Positions 45,998 to 52,885 of a stretch of 64,000 nt of DNA are shown here, piece by piece. The translations under genes and the position numbers were made by a program. How positions within the stretch are numbered: position 1 is the stretch's first letter; each line of letters starts with the position of its first letter. This DNA comes from Algoriphagus lutimaris (GTDB taxonomy: Bacteria > Bacteroidota > Bacteroidia > Cytophagales > Cyclobacteriaceae): assembly GCF_017051705.1 (NCBI RefSeq), contig NZ_JAFIDJ010000002.1, positions 950,384-1,014,383 on the forward strand, given 5' to 3'. Under the pieces are notes generated by a model that was not told the DNA's origin, did no database searches, and was given only the letters and a program-made list of their open reading frames with translations.

Positions 45998-47044
45998 ATG
46001 AAGATATTCGAATGTGGGAAGTGTTTTCAACCGCTTTATTTTGAAAATCAAAGCTGCGAGAAATGTGGGCATTTGGTAGGGTTCTCCAATGCCGAGCTGG
46101 ATTTGAAAACATTCGAAAACGGATTGGGCTCATGGAAATCTGATGGAGACAATTTTGAATTTAAATTTTGTAAAAACAAAGAGTTTGGAGTTTGCAACTG
46201 GCTGATTCCAGCAAGTGATCAGGATGATTTTTGCGTTGCCTGTAAACTCAATAGAACCATTCCTGATTTATCAGATGCCGAAAATTTCAAAAGGTGGCAA
46301 AAACTTGAAATTGCTAAACATAGACTCATTTATCAATTGGTAAGATTGGGATTGAATCCTCAATCAATAATGGAAGATCCTAACGGCCTAACTTTTGATT
46401 TTATCAACAACCAATATGGAATTGGGGAAAAAGCAATGACAGGTCATGACAATGGGGTGATTACGATCCTACTTTCAGAGGCTGATGCTGTCCATAGAGA
46501 ACAAATGAAGAAAGAGTTCGCAGAACCTTATCGAACCTTGATTGGACATTTTAGGCATGAGGTAGGCCATTATTTTTGGGATCGATTGGTATTCAATGAC
46601 CCTAGTATTCTCCAGGAATTTAGAAACGTCTTTGGCGATGAACGAGCGAATTATGGAAACTCATTAAATAGCTACTATTCGGATGGACCTCAATCCAATT
46701 GGCAGCAAAACTACATAAGCCAATATGCTACCTCTCATCCATGGGAGGATTGGGCTGAGACTTGGGCCCATTATCTTCATATCATGGATATGGCAGAGAC
46801 CGCCTATTATTTTGGGATGAGAGTGGAGCCAAAACTTTACGAGAACACCCTAGATGGGGCTATTGGTTTTGATCCCTATGATTGTACGGATTTTGAGAAA
46901 ATTTTAAAAGACTGGGGTCCCATATCATTTGCAATCAACAGTCTCAATCGGTCCATGGGAATGCCTGATATGTACCCGTTTGTGATCAGTCCAATAGTAA
47001 AAGCAAAAATGGAGTTTATCCATCGATTAGTCTACAGGAGTTAA
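45998..47044 (+). CDS. putative zinc-binding metallopeptidase with N-terminal zinc ribbon
   Basis: The 348 residues start with a zinc ribbon (C6-x2-C9 and C20-x2-C23). A second Cys-rich patch (FCVAC near 77-81) follows. The peptidase domain has the gluzincin-like HEVGH at 187-191 with a likely third ligand in the later EDWAETWAHYLH segment. This matches the Bacteroidota/Proteobacteria family of putative zinc-binding peptidases (DUF-type Peptidase_Mx). No signal peptide, so it is cytoplasmic. The substrate is unknown. Confidence 0.85.
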   Translation: MKIFECGKCFQPLYFENQSCEKCGHLVGFSNAELDLKTFENGLGSWKSDGDNFEFKFCKNKEFGVCNWLIPASDQDDFCVACKLNRTIPDLSDAENFKRWQKLEIAKHRLIYQLVRLGLNPQSIMEDPNGLTFDFINNQYGIGEKAMTGHDNGVITILLSEADAVHREQMKKEFAEPYRTLIGHFRHEVGHYFWDRLVFNDPSILQEFRNVFGDERANYGNSLNSYYSDGPQSNWQQNYISQYATSHPWEDWAETWAHYLHIMDMAETAYYFGMRVEPKLYENTLDGAIGFDPYDCTDFEKILKDWGPISFAINSLNRSMGMPDMYPFVISPIVKAKMEFIHRLVYRS

Positions 47045-47063
47045 AGCCAATTGGGAAAGGGAG

Positions 47064-48395
47064 TCAATCTAATGTCCTTCCATTTACCTTCACATTTTTC
47101 AAATCAAACCCAGTGATTATGCTTGGATCGAATTTGTCATTTTTTGCCTTGATTTTAAGATTTTCAAATTTAAATTGAGCTAATCGATCATGTTCGGTAA
47201 TCGCCACATCAAAAAAGATATCGCATTCCAAGTTGATGTTTTTCATGGTAATATGGTCTGAAAATGATTTTGGAACTTCTTTTCTACCCTTTAGATCGAA
47301 AAATTGAGTCCAAGGCTTCACATAGATCATGCTGTATGCCTGCCCTGTAATATTCTCTACTGTAATGTATTCATAGTGTTGGGGGGTGTCAGGACGCATT
47401 TTTAACCATAAAAGCCTTCGGGCATCCTGAATTTTTATATTCCTCATGATCACATTCTTGTTATGAATGGATTCACTTCCATTGGTGAGGGCGGAATGAC
47501 AAAAGCCAAATTCACTATCCTCGATTATAATGTGGGTGTTTTCTCCATTGTTTGGGTCTTCATCCGCCCAAGGCCCTTTTCCACCTTTTAGGGCAATGGC
47601 ATCGTCATTTACAGCAAGGTAGCAACCTTTGATCAGCACATTGTTGACTACATCTAAGTCTATGGCATCCGTACTTGGCGCTTTGATGGGTTCATGAGGA
47701 GAGGTAATGGTTAGGTCTAGGAGTTTAATATTGTTGCATTGGTAATAATGGCTACTCCAAAAACCAGCATTGATCAATTTCACATCTTGTAACTGGACAT
47801 CATTACTTTTCCAAATAAATACCAGTCTGGGTCTGGAAACCTCTAAATTGGTACAATTCGGATCTTCTTCCCTTCGTTTCCAGAATGCTTTCCAAAAGTT
47901 CAAACCATTTCCATTGATGGTTCCTCTACCTGTAATGGAGAATCCATCTACTCCATATGCATTCACCAAAGCTGCGAAGTAGTCTAGGTTTTGGCCTTCC
48001 ATCCGCGAAGGGATTTTTGGATAATTGGCAATGTCGTCAGATCCTTTCAATACGGCCCCTTCCTCTAGATGTAAATGAGTGTTGGGCTTGAAAAATAAAG
48101 CGCCGCTTAAAAATGTTCCTTTTGGAATGACAATGACACCTCCTCCGGATTGACTGGCCTCGTCTATGATTCGTTGAATTTTTTCGGTTTGAAGGGAAGT
48201 GCTATCCGCAACTACTCCATGAGAAGTAATCTTATATTGTTTCCCCAAATCCTTTAATTCTAATTTACTATAATCATGAAACCAAGGAGAAATTTTCGAA
48301 CCATCAGGCCAATTATCCTCCTTCGAGTAAGTTTGCGAAAAAGTGATTTGGATACTTAAAAATAGAAATAGAAGAATGGAGTGGAGGATTTTCAT
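47064..48395 (-). CDS. exported glycoside hydrolase family 28 (polygalacturonase-like)
   Basis: The 443 residues have a signal peptide (MKILHSILLFLFLSIQITFSQ). An N-terminal pectate-lyase-3-like start follows (GVVADSTSLQTEKIQRIIDEA, GGVVIVPKG-type), then the right-handed beta-helix. Catalytic Asp motifs of GH28 are STDAIDLD and NDDAIALKGG. The typical GHG is replaced by CHSALTNGSES. It is probably active on pectin-type or rhamnogalacturonan oligomers in the periplasm. No SusC/D pair is adjacent, so it is outside a classical PUL. Confidence 0.9.
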   Translation of the reverse strand: MKILHSILLFLFLSIQITFSQTYSKEDNWPDGSKISPWFHDYSKLELKDLGKQYKITSHGVVADSTSLQTEKIQRIIDEASQSGGGVIVIPKGTFLSGALFFKPNTHLHLEEGAVLKGSDDIANYPKIPSRMEGQNLDYFAALVNAYGVDGFSITGRGTINGNGLNFWKAFWKRREEDPNCTNLEVSRPRLVFIWKSNDVQLQDVKLINAGFWSSHYYQCNNIKLLDLTITSPHEPIKAPSTDAIDLDVVNNVLIKGCYLAVNDDAIALKGGKGPWADEDPNNGENTHIIIEDSEFGFCHSALTNGSESIHNKNVIMRNIKIQDARRLLWLKMRPDTPQHYEYITVENITGQAYSMIYVKPWTQFFDLKGRKEVPKSFSDHITMKNINLECDIFFDVAITEHDRLAQFKFENLKIKAKNDKFDPSIITGFDLKNVKVNGRTLD

Positions 48396-48498
48396 CTTGG
48401 TAATAATAACAAATTCATGTCAGAATTGAGACAAATCGAATTTCAAATTATTCCATGTATTGAACAAAGGGGATCCTTTGCTGACCTGTTAATTCCCA

Positions 48499-49824
48499 TT
48501 ACGAGGGGTTTTCTTTTCCTTTCATGACATCCATGACGAAATCAAGAGCTGAGTTCCAAGCATTCATGCATTTTTCGGTATTGTTTCCCCCTAACGTCTT
48601 ATTTATGGTATAGAGCAATGCTTCTTTTACCACTGGGTAATGTGTGGCCTGCACACCATATTTTACATGGTTTTCTCCTAATCGCTGTAGGCCTGTGACC
48701 AAATGTTCTGGTCTCGATAATGAATAAATGATGCCGCCTAACATATGGGTCAAGAGTCGGCCTTGATCGGTCATATTATTTCGGAAAAGGCTTTTGGCAT
48801 TCGGATCGATTTCAAATACCTTATCATAGAAAATAGAAGCAAATTCTTCCGGATTTTCCATCATGATGGGAAGAGAGGCTTGGAGTTCCAACTGCATATC
48901 CATTTCCTTGAACGCTAATAATTCGAACAATTCGGCAGGCTCTTCTTTCCCTTTCAGTTCTTTTAAGTAGGTTTCCCCAATTTCAAGGGTATCTTTTGGA
49001 ATACTATTTAAGACTGTTTTTGAAATGAGAATTTTGGATTGGGTAACTTTCGTTTGCTCTTGAATCCTGCTCGCTACATTCACAGGATCTCCAATGACTG
49101 AAAATTGCTTATGGGTCGGATGTCCCAAATGACCAATGTAGGCTTTGCCAAAATTGATACCTATTCCGGAATTTAATTTGATGTCCAAATCCTTTAATTC
49201 AGTGTTATTGAGATGTGTCAAAGCAAAATGCATCCCCAATCCTGCTCGGATGGCATCCGTACAAATTTTATCCCTTGTGCCTCCAGTGGTCCCAAACACT
49301 CCGATAATTTCATCTCCTACGTATTGGTAAATAATTCCATTATTCATCAGAATTGGGTCTCCCAATGCGGTATAAAACTTGTTGAGCAGGAAGGCCATGT
49401 CGTAATTCAAGTTATTGGAAGAGAGGTTGGTATAATTTCTTAAATCACAAAAAAGGATAGCAATGGGTCTTTCTTCTGCTTTTCCTACCGGAGAGAGCTC
49501 TTTTTGTAATTGGTTAACTTCCCCCATAGACCAGATTAAGCGTTGCAAGGTTACGTCACCTTTTGGGTAGGATTGGCAGGCTAGTCGGATAGAAGGATCC
49601 CATTTCCTTGCGTAAGAAGTTTCCTGTTCCAGCTGGTTTTTTGGATTTAAGTTATTGATTCCTTCCAGTATCCTGACTCTACAGGTGGTGCATCTTCCAT
49701 GCCCTCCACATTCATGCAAATGGGTAATTTGATTAGCAATGGAAATATCCAATAGGGAATTCATATCATCATCATTTTCCACCACACGATTTATTCCAGC
49801 ATAGGTAATTTTCTGTTTCATCAT
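48499..49824 (-). CDS. three-domain sensor: 2Fe-2S ferredoxin - class III nucleotidyl cyclase - globin
   Basis: The 441 residues have no signal peptide. Residues about 3-100 are an adrenodoxin-like ferredoxin with C39-x5-C45-x2-C48-x34-C83. Residues about 117-305 are a class III cyclase with metal Asp127 and Asp171 and the catalytic N249/R253 pair in GDPVNVASR. The base-recognition positions are Gln167 and Ser242, not the Lys/Asp of typical adenylyl cyclases, so ATP or GTP use is open. Residues about 310-435 are a flavohaemoglobin-type globin with Tyr333 (B10), Gln354 (E7) and proximal His386 in ENHVKYG. It should make a cyclic nucleotide in response to haem-ligand or redox state. It is monocistronic. 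Confidence 0.92.
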   Translation of the reverse strand: MMKQKITYAGINRVVENDDDMNSLLDISIANQITHLHECGGHGRCTTCRVRILEGINNLNPKNQLEQETSYARKWDPSIRLACQSYPKGDVTLQRLIWSMGEVNQLQKELSPVGKAEERPIAILFCDLRNYTNLSSNNLNYDMAFLLNKFYTALGDPILMNNGIIYQYVGDEIIGVFGTTGGTRDKICTDAIRAGLGMHFALTHLNNTELKDLDIKLNSGIGINFGKAYIGHLGHPTHKQFSVIGDPVNVASRIQEQTKVTQSKILISKTVLNSIPKDTLEIGETYLKELKGKEEPAELFELLAFKEMDMQLELQASLPIMMENPEEFASIFYDKVFEIDPNAKSLFRNNMTDQGRLLTHMLGGIIYSLSRPEHLVTGLQRLGENHVKYGVQATHYPVVKEALLYTINKTLGGNNTEKCMNAWNSALDFVMDVMKGKENPS

Positions 49825-50119
49825 TCTAAGAATTAGGTGAAAAATTGAATCAATGGATTCAGATTTCTTTTACTTGCTTATTTCGAGGTCCTTTGTTCAT
49901 TCTAAAAATCATGATTCGCAATTATATAAAAATTGAGATTAATTATTAAGATGCCAATTGAGATCAAAAAAGCTATAAGGAATATCCGCAAAAAAGAGCA
50001 AATTGTCAATTGAAAATGAGATAGTTATGCTTTCTAATGAAGTATGCTTTCAATTATCTCCATAAAAGAAGTAAAGGAGTGAACTTGGTCTACTCCTTTA
50101 CTATTCATGTTTTTTAGAG
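49825..50119. other. intergenic region between amidohydrolase end and cyclase start
   Basis: These 295 bp are A/T-rich. They hold the terminator of the amidohydrolase gene at 50062-50102 and, presumably, the promoter of the cyclase gene. No TAnnTTTG box was recognised on the minus strand. A 20-codon plus-strand frame at 49951-50013 has no support as a gene. Confidence 0.5.
50062..50102 (-). terminator. terminator after the 50120 amidohydrolase
   Basis: A perfect 11-bp stem AGTAAAGGAGT (50070-50080) with ACTCCTTTACT (50092-50102), loop 11 nt. On the minus strand it is followed by TCTTTTAT, a moderate T-run. Confidence 0.7.
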
Positions 50120-51109
50120 TTATTCAAATTTTGAGGCATCTAAATTGAAGAACCTGACCGCATTGTTAAAGAAAATATCCCGTTTTTGATCATAGGATAA
50201 ATAGGTGGCATTTTGGATCAGGCCAATTGATGTTTCCAACAGTTTTGGCCAAATCATTAGGTCTGTTCCGTATAATATTCGTTTTCCAAAACCTGCTTGA
50301 ACCAATCTTTTCAAATAGTCATGAATTTCATCTTGAGGATAGCTCCAGATTAAACCAGCCAAATCCACATAAACATATGCATTGGCACCCATCAAAGCGA
50401 TCATTTCATCGATCATAGGGTATCCTGCATGCATGACCCATATTTTTAATTTGGGATGTCTCGCGAGCATGTCTTCCAATAAGAAGGGATTTCCCATAGA
50501 GGCTCTATAAGAGGGGCTTGTGATATTGGCCATTCCATTTCCACCAGTTCCCATATGGATACCTACCGGAATACCAAGTTCTTCTGCTACTCCAAAGTAT
50601 TCATCTAAAGACATGTCACTTGGGGATTTGCCTTGGTATTGTGGTGCAATCTCTCCCATAACTTTATAAAAACCACCTGAAAGGGAGTCCCTGAATGCTT
50701 CCACACTCATATCCTGCCCAATTCCAATCGAAGGAATGATACGGTTAGGAACAGCGTTGTACCAATTATGGATAATTTCGGCATCTCCACTGACAACCAT
50801 CGTGACGTTTAGCCGTTCAGTAGCTGATATAATAGCATCTTGCATTTCCTGATCAGATTTTGCAGCTTTTAATGGGTCAACGCAATCATTATTTAGGAAA
50901 GAAGGGGCTGGTTGATTAGGTCCGCTTCCTGGCATGGAAGTAAGGAACCAGGGACAGAGATCAGATGCGAATGCTGGGTTTACCTTAGAGGCATGCACAT
51001 GCACATCAATTATAGGAGGCATTTTCTTTTCAGTTTGAGCTGAAATTTGAAAAGAAAGTAGCGCAATCAGTGAGAAGAAGCGCGCTTTAGGTAGTAATTT
51101 TAGGGTCAT
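50120..51109 (-). CDS. exported amidohydrolase family protein
   Basis: A TIM-barrel hydrolase of 329 residues with a signal peptide ending near FQISAQ25. Metal-ligand phrases include PPIIDVHVHAS (HxH), GIPVGIHMGTG, WVMHAGYP and ILYGTDLMIWP, in PF04909 order. The exported location is shared with the amidohydrolase at 15799, but the two are distant in sequence. The substrate cannot be named. Confidence 0.87.
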   Translation of the reverse strand: MTLKLLPKARFFSLIALLSFQISAQTEKKMPPIIDVHVHASKVNPAFASDLCPWFLTSMPGSGPNQPAPSFLNNDCVDPLKAAKSDQEMQDAIISATERLNVTMVVSGDAEIIHNWYNAVPNRIIPSIGIGQDMSVEAFRDSLSGGFYKVMGEIAPQYQGKSPSDMSLDEYFGVAEELGIPVGIHMGTGGNGMANITSPSYRASMGNPFLLEDMLARHPKLKIWVMHAGYPMIDEMIALMGANAYVYVDLAGLIWSYPQDEIHDYLKRLVQAGFGKRILYGTDLMIWPKLLETSIGLIQNATYLSYDQKRDIFFNNAVRFFNLDASKFE

Positions 51110-51273
51110 AATGGAAGTTGTATTGCTACAATGAAAATTATTTTCTTATTGTTTCTTTATGACAAAATAGACTAATCTTTTTAGAATGAAAAATTAATTT
51201 TGCAGGATAAGGGCTTAGTATTTATTTTCTGTGTATCATTAATCCCACACTTTTCATTTTAAATTCTTTTACT

Positions 51274-51573
51274 ATGATAAATCACAGTGTTTTTTTTAAG
51301 TTAAAGTACCCCAAGGGTTCTTCTGAAGAAAGGATATTTTTGAATGCAGCCTCAAAACTTTCCACAATCTCAGTTGTAAAGAATTTTCTGGTATTGGATG
51401 AAACCAGTCCTAAAAATGAGTATGAATATGGCTTAAAAATGGAGTTTGAAAGTCAAGAAGCTTATGATGCTTACAATGAACACCCACATCATTCCCTGTT
51501 TTTAAAGATGTATTGGGATGATTATGTGGATAAGTTTTTAGAGATTGATTACAAAGTGATAGACCTCCAATAA
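51274..51573 (+). CDS. Dabb (stress-responsive alpha/beta-barrel) domain protein
   Basis: The 99 residues form one dimeric ferredoxin-like barrel: MINHSVFFKLKYPKGSSEERIFL opens and EAYDAYNEHPHHSLFL is the typical motif before the last helix. Dabb proteins include small stress-linked and aromatic-cyclase-like enzymes. The stop codon lies within the terminator stem. TAATTTTG at 51195-51202 may be the -7 box. Confidence 0.87.
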   Translation: MINHSVFFKLKYPKGSSEERIFLNAASKLSTISVVKNFLVLDETSPKNEYEYGLKMEFESQEAYDAYNEHPHHSLFLKMYWDDYVDKFLEIDYKVIDLQ

Positions 51574-51608
51574 AAAAGGAAGAAATCAAATCGATTTCTT
51601 CCTTTTTT
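51572..51608. terminator. long perfect hairpin terminator
   Basis: A 16-bp perfect stem, AAAAAAGGAAGAAATC (51572-51587) with GATTTCTTCCTTTTTT (51593-51608), and a 5-nt loop. Its A-tract overlaps the Dabb stop codon. The A/T tracts on both sides would let it work in both directions. Confidence 0.92.
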
Positions 51609-51739
51609 ATTATTAACTAACATGTCGGGTATTAGTAGAAGTTAATTATTGATTTAAAAAAACTTGATCTTCTAAAAATGAGTTTGAGCGTTCATATTCA
51701 GAAGTATACCTTCTTTTGATAACAGGTTTAACAATCCCT

Positions 51740-52885
51740 TTATTCCATTTTCCAAAAGATAATACCACCTGCTTGTTTACCCATATCAACCGAAGCCACT
51801 TTTTTGGCATTTTTGATATCGATTACATCCATGGTCCCCGGCTCTCCGCCGATCCCTTCCACAGAAATAAAAGCATATTTACTATCAGGAGAAATGCTCA
51901 CTCCATGAGAAACCATCCTCGTATTTTTGACACGAGGAAGTTCTTTCTTCTTTTTTAAATCCCAAATTCCAGTTTCGCCACTACCCTTGTAGGTGGCTAC
52001 CAAATACTTTCCATCTGGAGAAATGTCCAAGTTGTAAGGACCTTTTCCGGTTTTGAACCTGTCTGTGATTTCCCACTTTTCTAGATCTACTTCCAAAATT
52101 TCATCGGATCCATTTCCAGCAACATATACTTTTCCATTCGTAGGATGAGGCATTGCCCAAGTAGGTTTGGTCGCACTATGGTACATGGGAGTACTCATCG
52201 CTGCATGCCCCATTTTTGAGTGATCCATCATGCTATGATCCATTCCTCCCTTGGCAGGCTCTTCTTCTTCTATGCCATCAAGATTTAATTTTCGATTTAC
52301 TTTCAATTTGGTTGTTGAAATCTCAAATAATTCTCCAGACATCATTCCCACGGAATAATGATACATGCCGTCGGCAGAGATTCTAGAACCATGCGGCATT
52401 ACTCCAGTTTCGATTTTTTCAATTTCAATCATCTCCTCAGGGTCTACGACAGAAACTGTGCTCGGAACCATGTCTCCATGCAGGTTAAAATTCACACAAT
52501 ACAATAGCCCTGTTGCTTTAGACACTTGAAGCGATGCAGGGAATAAGCCAAGCATCACAGTGTCAACAACCTCATTGGTAGCAGTGGAATATTTGTATAA
52601 AGTGCCATAAGGATTGCCATGGGCAAGCGACAAATACCAATATTTACCATCCGGGCTAACATTGATGCCATGAGGGCCTTCTATTTCGGCTGGCCAAACT
52701 CCTACGGGAATAGTCTCTTCAATAGTGGCTTTTTCTCCATCAAATTTTACCAAAGCCACCTCATCCTCAGATTCTGCTGTGACATAGATATAATAGTCTT
52801 GAGCCTGAGCTACCAGACTGAATAACCCTGAGGCTATTGTGAATAGGAAAGCTTTATTGAAGACTGATTTTAGAATCTTGCTCAT
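51740..52885 (-). CDS. exported YncE-like beta-propeller with Met/His-rich loop
   Basis: The 381 residues have a signal peptide ending VAQAQ29. Propeller blades are marked by repeated ISPDGKY-type turns (NVSPDGKYWY, DISPDGKYLVATY, SISPDSKYAFISVEG), as in the YVTN/cytochrome-D1-like family. Between blades, around residues 215-235, an inserted loop reads GGMDHSMMDHSKMGHAAM, similar to copper-binding MDHSxM repeats of periplasmic copper proteins. It is the second gene after the LVIVD protein (14-bp gap). Metal binding is an inference from the loop. Confidence 0.85.
   Translation of the reverse strand: MSKILKSVFNKAFLFTIASGLFSLVAQAQDYYIYVTAESEDEVALVKFDGEKATIEETIPVGVWPAEIEGPHGINVSPDGKYWYLSLAHGNPYGTLYKYSTATNEVVDTVMLGLFPASLQVSKATGLLYCVNFNLHGDMVPSTVSVVDPEEMIEIEKIETGVMPHGSRISADGMYHYSVGMMSGELFEISTTKLKVNRKLNLDGIEEEEPAKGGMDHSMMDHSKMGHAAMSTPMYHSATKPTWAMPHPTNGKVYVAGNGSDEILEVDLEKWEITDRFKTGKGPYNLDISPDGKYLVATYKGSGETGIWDLKKKKELPRVKNTRMVSHGVSISPDSKYAFISVEGIGGEPGTMDVIDIKNAKKVASVDMGKQAGGIIFWKME

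Follow-up and report, generated by a model that had tools for sequence, protein, structure and literature searches.

A three-domain gene and its conserved site residues

The stretch of Algoriphagus lutimaris DNA analysed here (64,000 nucleotides, hereafter the window) contains, on the evidence of the open reading frame (ORF) list and the translation, a minus-strand ORF that runs from an ATG at position 49824 down to position 48499; the plus strand across the same interval is full of stops, and the original prediction had named no strand. The encoded 441-aa protein joins an N-terminal [2Fe-2S] (Fer2) domain, a class III nucleotidyl cyclase domain, and a C-terminal globin in one chain (Table 1), as the original prediction had proposed, with all three Pfam scores above the cut-off and approximately two times the cut-off or more; the profile search that had been suggested as a check thus recovered the C-terminal part as a globin. 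Sequence matches in the PDB include class III cyclases (e.g., 2w01 and 1wc0) within residues 115–304, the single-domain globins 3wfw and 3s1i as well as the flavohaemoglobin 1cqx at the C-terminus, and, more weakly, [2Fe-2S] ferredoxins and ferredoxin-like subunits at the N-terminus.

Table 1. Features at the cyclase locus and nearby genes (positions in the window)
Feature	Positions	Strand	Basis
Whole gene, Fer2-cyclase-globin protein, 441 aa	48499..49824	-	ORF and translation
Fer2 [2Fe-2S] domain, residues 7–88; ligands C39, C45, C48, C83	49561..49806	-	Pfam PF00111, 42.1 bits (cut-off 21.0)
Conserved linker from Fer2 to cyclase, residues 92–117	49474..49551	-	Conservation
Class III nucleotidyl cyclase domain, residues 118–295; D127/D171, N249/R253, base site Q167/S242	48940..49473	-	Pfam PF00211 Guanylate_cyc, 55.7 bits (cut-off 21.9); PDB matches; conservation
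Single-domain flavohaemoglobin-type globin, residues ~315–435; Y333, F347, Q354, H386, Y396	48520..48882	-	Pfam PF00042, 45.0 bits (cut-off 22.0) over residues 332–434; PDB matches
Rhamnogalacturonidase, beside the cyclase gene	47064..48395		Strong match, 769 bits (cut-off 650)
Beta-propeller protein	51740..52885		Sub-threshold matches, including a clade III lactonase-type nitrous-oxide reductase model, 70 bits (cut-off 700)

The Fe-S ligands, metal-binding, base-site, and transition-state residues named in the original prediction were all found in the translation, and most are strictly conserved in a combined alignment of 61 rows (57 of them different), to which genomes from further searches had been added. 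The four cysteines, spaced C39-x5-C45-x2-C48-x34-C83, and the metal-binding D127 and D171 are invariant in all 61 rows; the transition-state pair is kept in 61 (N249) and 60 (R253) of these rows. The globin residues Y333, F347, Q354, H386, Y389, and Y396 are likewise invariant (61/61), and the invariance of the sites of all three domains reaches a distant member (L063) with 36% identity. In alignments with 1cqx and with globins of the Hell's Gate type, Y333, Q354, and H386 fall at the positions that we take to be B10, E7, and F8, respectively, which bears out the predicted B10 Tyr, E7 Gln, and proximal His; F347 is taken to be CD1. In the segment between Fer2 and cyclase, R95, E102, L106, Q107, and E109 are kept in 44 of 44 aligned sequences and W98 in 43 of 44; this linker may pass a signal between the two domains.

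The spacings D127–D171, Q167–D171, S242–N249, and N249–R253 presumably equal those of cyanobacterial CyaC. Class III adenylate cyclases recognize the base by a Lys together with an Asp or a Thr. This combination does not occur in the family; a Gln (Q167) occupies the Lys position in all 61 rows and position 242 is variable (S in 36 rows, A in 16, T in 7, C in 1, and G in 1), and the departure from a Lys/Asp pair that had been predicted for this one protein extends to its relatives. The Gln/Ser base site bears on the product and not on class III membership; with an invariant Gln at this site, the product (cAMP, cGMP, or pyrimidine) is not readable from the sequence.

The protein ends a few residues past the globin and the FAD/NAD reductase domain of flavohaemoglobins is absent; the NCBIfam flavohemoprotein model scored 58.6 bits against a cut-off of 432. 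A globin and a transducer domain in one chain (PF00042 and PF00211) are the combination that characterizes globin-coupled sensors; however, while the globin of classical globin-coupled sensors is N-terminal, that of the 441-aa protein is C-terminal. Comparison with the nearest relative (L058; 96% identical) gave a dN of 0.019 and a dS of 0.643, indicating that the protein is under purifying selection.

Distribution and inheritance of the family

The protein had been presented as a single case, but it belongs to a family that is patchy over Bacteroidota and has two copies in its own genome. The three-part Fer2-cyclase-globin design is real and common to dozens of related bacteria: the search for the same architecture, a scan of genome contigs that reaches close relatives only, identified 42 loci encoding a relative (44–74% identity), all 42 of which span the three domains, and each of the 31 scanned members placed in alignment A1 matched all three Pfam models. 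Another family of the phylum contributes a distant member (G394, L063), which is 36–37% identical and also contains all three Pfam domains. Full-length matches were found in 3 of the 36 genomes searched from the window's own genus (own genome counted), in 14 of the 397 genomes sampled from the family of G173, and in 3 of 395 genomes of a phylum-wide sample (own genome counted). Alignment rows that are identical to named strains suggest Flavobacteriaceae as the family of G173 (L092, identical to Eudoraea) and Algoriphagus as the window's genus (L059, identical to Algoriphagus zhangzhouensis). Outside Bacteroidota, coverage consisted of the close-relative contig scan and of plasmid records, 529 of which matched, with none covering 80% of the query. 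The titles of the 42 loci are those of Bacteroidota except for one locus (L052:1511-2812), where the three-domain gene is on a contig titled Thalassovita (Pseudomonadota) and groups with sequences from Flammeovirgaceae and Cytophagales; this contig may be mis-binned. Among the open-licence PMC papers that the literature searches brought up, none was seen to describe the three-domain protein.

The three domains are inherited as one unit, with pairwise domain distances (uncorrected for relatedness) that correlate between Fer2 and cyclase (r = 0.88), cyclase and globin (r = 0.90), and Fer2 and globin (r = 0.86). The second own-genome copy is located outside the window (G000:C1:276000-277301) and is 67% identical to the window copy. 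A quick tree of the 61 rows (SH-aLRT support only) placed the window copy in a set of nine rows with sequences from Lewinella, Saprospiraceae, Robertkochia, and Cyclobacteriaceae, and the second copy in a set of five Algoriphagus rows nested within a group that is mostly Flavobacteriaceae; by their placement in this tree, the two copies belong to different lineages. Horizontal transfer is a candidate explanation, as it would account for both the separate copies and the patchiness of the family.

Gene neighbourhoods

Neighbouring genes were grouped by blastp clustering of ORFs over 57 cyclase loci, with Pfam searches for selected neighbours; because clustering relied on blastp and the flanks were unequal in length, some of them truncated where a contig stops, partners that have diverged may have escaped detection. 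One section of the tree shows a conserved row in which genes for a TPR histidine kinase and a NarL-type regulator are located divergently upstream of the cyclase, with an EncM-like FAD oxidase after it; domain identities of these neighbours are from one locus (L027). The kinase was found at 20 loci (a count that includes L147, a longer protein joined by clustering), the regulator at 18, and the oxidase at 15. The second own-genome copy (L158) is located in a complete row with regulator, kinase, and oxidase. The window copy, according to the same clustering, has no kinase, regulator, or EncM-like oxidase alongside; its neighbours are the rhamnogalacturonidase gene (Table 1) and an amidohydrolase gene, an order also present in G018, and the 57-locus clustering found no conserved neighbour beyond G018. 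Upstream of the gene, one promoter-like pattern was sought and gave no match, and no Rfam family reached threshold within positions 47000–51700. The EncM-like FAD oxidase gene that follows the three-domain cyclase at L027:7396-8787 and at a further 14 loci encodes, in L027, a protein with a match of 342 bits to EncM in the PDB; it is possible that this oxidase represents an electron partner or a target of the cyclase.

Association with PycTM genes

PycTM is a family of membrane proteins known as Pycsar effectors. Five loci from the Muricauda group presented a PycTM gene after the three-domain cyclase, either directly (L023, L025, and L054) or after an intervening oxidase (L026 and L028); the L026 PycTM scored 56.6 bits with the Pfam PycTM model and 104.5 bits with the PADLOC PycTM model. 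Clustering placed PycTM at only these 5 of 57 three-domain loci and not at the window. Among 397 sampled genomes, a PycTM relative (E of 1e-30 or better) was found in 63 and the three-domain protein in 14; seven genomes contained both genes, in each case at a large distance from one another or on separate contigs. These two results led us to reject PycTM as a general partner of the three-domain family.

At 22 of the 30 best PycTM loci, another class III cyclase is located beside PycTM or one ORF away (one ORF intervenes in L106 and L123); 20 of these cyclases are similar to a 346-aa REC-cyclase and two to a 390-aa one, as checked with Pfam for L108. The other eight loci had no cyclase within the fetched flank of approximately 1.5 kb. 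While the wide spread of PycTM might suggest that the Muricauda adjacency is an accident, the 22 loci with another class III cyclase point in the opposite direction. In a hand count over 11 genomes, which covered 12 loci less L033, a class III cyclase domain was located within approximately 2.3 kb for 9 of the 13 short PycTM genes, whereas the remaining four short genes and all ten long PycTM genes (396–434 aa frames) had no cyclase near; these counts come from related genomes and are not independent. The cyclase of five of the nine close pairs is the three-domain protein, and three pairs (in G835, G836, and G837) are on opposite strands. The genomes G830 and G831 have no PF00211 match other than the three-domain protein, and with it as the only class III cyclase detected, the pair could be studied there with little background; Flagellimonas amoyensis and Allomuricauda taeanensis are genomes of this kind, with a single detected class III cyclase in each.

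PycTM may thus be the receptor for the three-domain cyclase in the Muricauda group, and the receptor link could have persisted with the cyclase partner exchanged over time. A wider proposal is a gas- and redox-gated circuit outside phage defence, in which the messenger of the three-domain cyclase would act on PycTM, and PycTM proteins, beyond their role as Pycsar effectors, would serve the class III cyclases of Flavobacteriaceae as general and interchangeable receptors; we put this forward tentatively and consider it rather doubtful. The PycTM association suggests that ordinary signalling may also make use of an effector family known from defence against phages. In the own genome, the search for cyclic-nucleotide receptors that the original prediction had called for yielded nine cNMP-binding matches and three PycTM matches, which are receptor candidates.

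The pair of REC-cyclase and PycTM recurs in Flavobacteriaceae-type genomes (L104–L133; e.g., L108:395-2082). A similar REC-cyclase in the own genome (L005) has Lys/Thr at the base site, a pair typical of cAMP-forming cyclases, which fits poorly with a role of PycTM confined to pyrimidines. In G394, a PycTM match in a 280-aa frame and another class III cyclase match, in a 503-aa frame, are approximately 1.5 kb apart (G394:C3:128051-130520). At a further own-genome locus (L160; G000:C8:1192334-1194412), a short PycTM ORF (188 aa) is located within approximately 2 kb of a ferredoxin-like ORF (108 aa), with similar spacing in G018.

Proposed function and alternative readings

We propose that the three-domain protein is probably a soluble class III nucleotidyl cyclase that would work as a homodimer and carry two built-in sensors: the C-terminal haem globin would bind O2 and/or NO, the N-terminal [2Fe-2S] domain would register or supply electrons, and both would alter cyclase output via conserved linkers. 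Cofactor loading, dimer formation, activity, direction of regulation, gating, product, and receptor are all features that we infer from sequence. A cyclic-nucleotide output that depends on electron supply as well as on O2/NO, as originally predicted, is plausible and fits the strict conservation seen at the sites of all three domains. Were both sensors to gate the cyclase, a single chain would merge electron supply and gas into one messenger; the 441-aa protein has no evident membrane anchor, which makes this directly testable.

A different division of labour would make the protein a self-reducing NO dioxygenase or gas sensor, in which Fer2 would take over the role that the FAD/NAD domain plays in flavohaemoglobin and donate electrons to the haem of the globin, the state of which the cyclase would report. 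The flavohaemoglobin-like character of the globin (the match to 1cqx and the flavohemoprotein score, which is far below its cut-off) and the invariance of the B10 Tyr, the E7 Gln, and Y396 in 61 rows are consistent with this reading, which we nonetheless consider unlikely, as the cyclase is located between Fer2 and globin, and as the existence of Fer2-cyclases without a globin indicates that Fer2 needs no globin partner. In addition, the proximal triad of flavohaemoglobins includes a Glu, the position of which would land in the variable C-terminus. Globin-free Fer2-cyclases, present as two-domain proteins in sampled Bacteroidota (G039, G195, and G374) and as longer proteins in rhizobia, could also suggest a cyclase that responds to redox state only, with the globin as a store or structural relic without a gating role; the invariance of the globin ligand-site residues in 61 rows argues against such a relic, which we regard as very unlikely.

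It is highly improbable that the protein belongs to an anti-phage system as a pyrimidine cyclase of the Pycsar type (PycC), even though the PADLOC PycC models match it (best score of 59 bits), PycTM is a neighbour at the five Muricauda-group loci, and F125, two residues before the metal Asp, is the same letter as F100 of EaPycC and F60 of AnPycC (PMC11224242). Among the residues reported there to recognize pyrimidines, this Phe alone is matched by offset count from the metal Asp; R142/Q144 of EaPycC and K104/F109 of AnPycC are not, and clustering found PycTM at only 5 of 57 loci. The PycC label was set aside because three of four control cyclases (L108, 93 bits; L005, 80 bits; and L143, 79 bits) outscore the 441-aa protein on the PycC models, with one lower (L001, 54 bits). 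The three-domain cyclase resembles Pycsar systems (PycC with PycTM or PycTIR) in that five of its loci have a PycTM gene near this class III cyclase, but it is not especially PycC-like by model score and carries added sensor domains; on present evidence it would not be Pycsar proper.

Relation to known cyclases and globins

Compared with the two-input cyclase favoured here, several known proteins share parts of the architecture, and the three-domain protein is a variant on known ferredoxin-linked and globin-coupled cyclases. The best solved matches over its globin are 3wfw, 3s1i, and 3ubc, which we take to be Hell's Gate and related single-domain globins; the solved chains are 131–139 aa long, with 3wfw named as a Roadblock/LC7 fusion and none named as a cyclase fusion.

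The original prediction had noted that pairings of an Fe-S domain and of a globin with a cyclase are each known in principle, and precedents exist for both (PMC4821796; PMC4534343). Class IIIb adenylate cyclases of proteobacteria, such as Q132R4 from Rhodopseudomonas palustris, are described as a 6TM anchor followed by ferredoxin and cyclase, with haem predicted in the anchor (PMC4821796). As in the 441-aa protein, Fer2 directly precedes the class III cyclase, and a haem (predicted), a ferredoxin, and a cyclase share one chain; a similar rhizobial protein (L143) is 34% identical over residues 23–300. In contrast to these enzymes, the 441-aa protein has no stretch before Fer2 that is fit as an anchor, its haem module would be the C-terminal globin, and its base-site pair is Gln/Ser instead of the Lys/Thr found in two rhizobial Fer2-cyclases. 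The protein would thus repeat the haem, ferredoxin, and cyclase theme proposed for the proteobacterial enzymes (PMC4821796) with another haem module at the opposite end. HemAC-Lm from Leishmania major is a haem-containing soluble adenylate cyclase that makes cAMP in response to O2 and, compared by description only, is likewise soluble and combines a globin with a class III cyclase; however, it is eukaryotic, and the passages that describe it name no ferredoxin domain (PMC4534343).

Two-domain Fer2-cyclases of Bacteroidota (L060, L064, and L065) present the same N-terminal order with 30–33% identity, but their frames (306–315 aa) stop before any globin and their base-site letters are E/V, E/T, and D/A. 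A Gln at the Lys position of the base site is also found in two other cyclases, L061 and L066, which have no Fer2.
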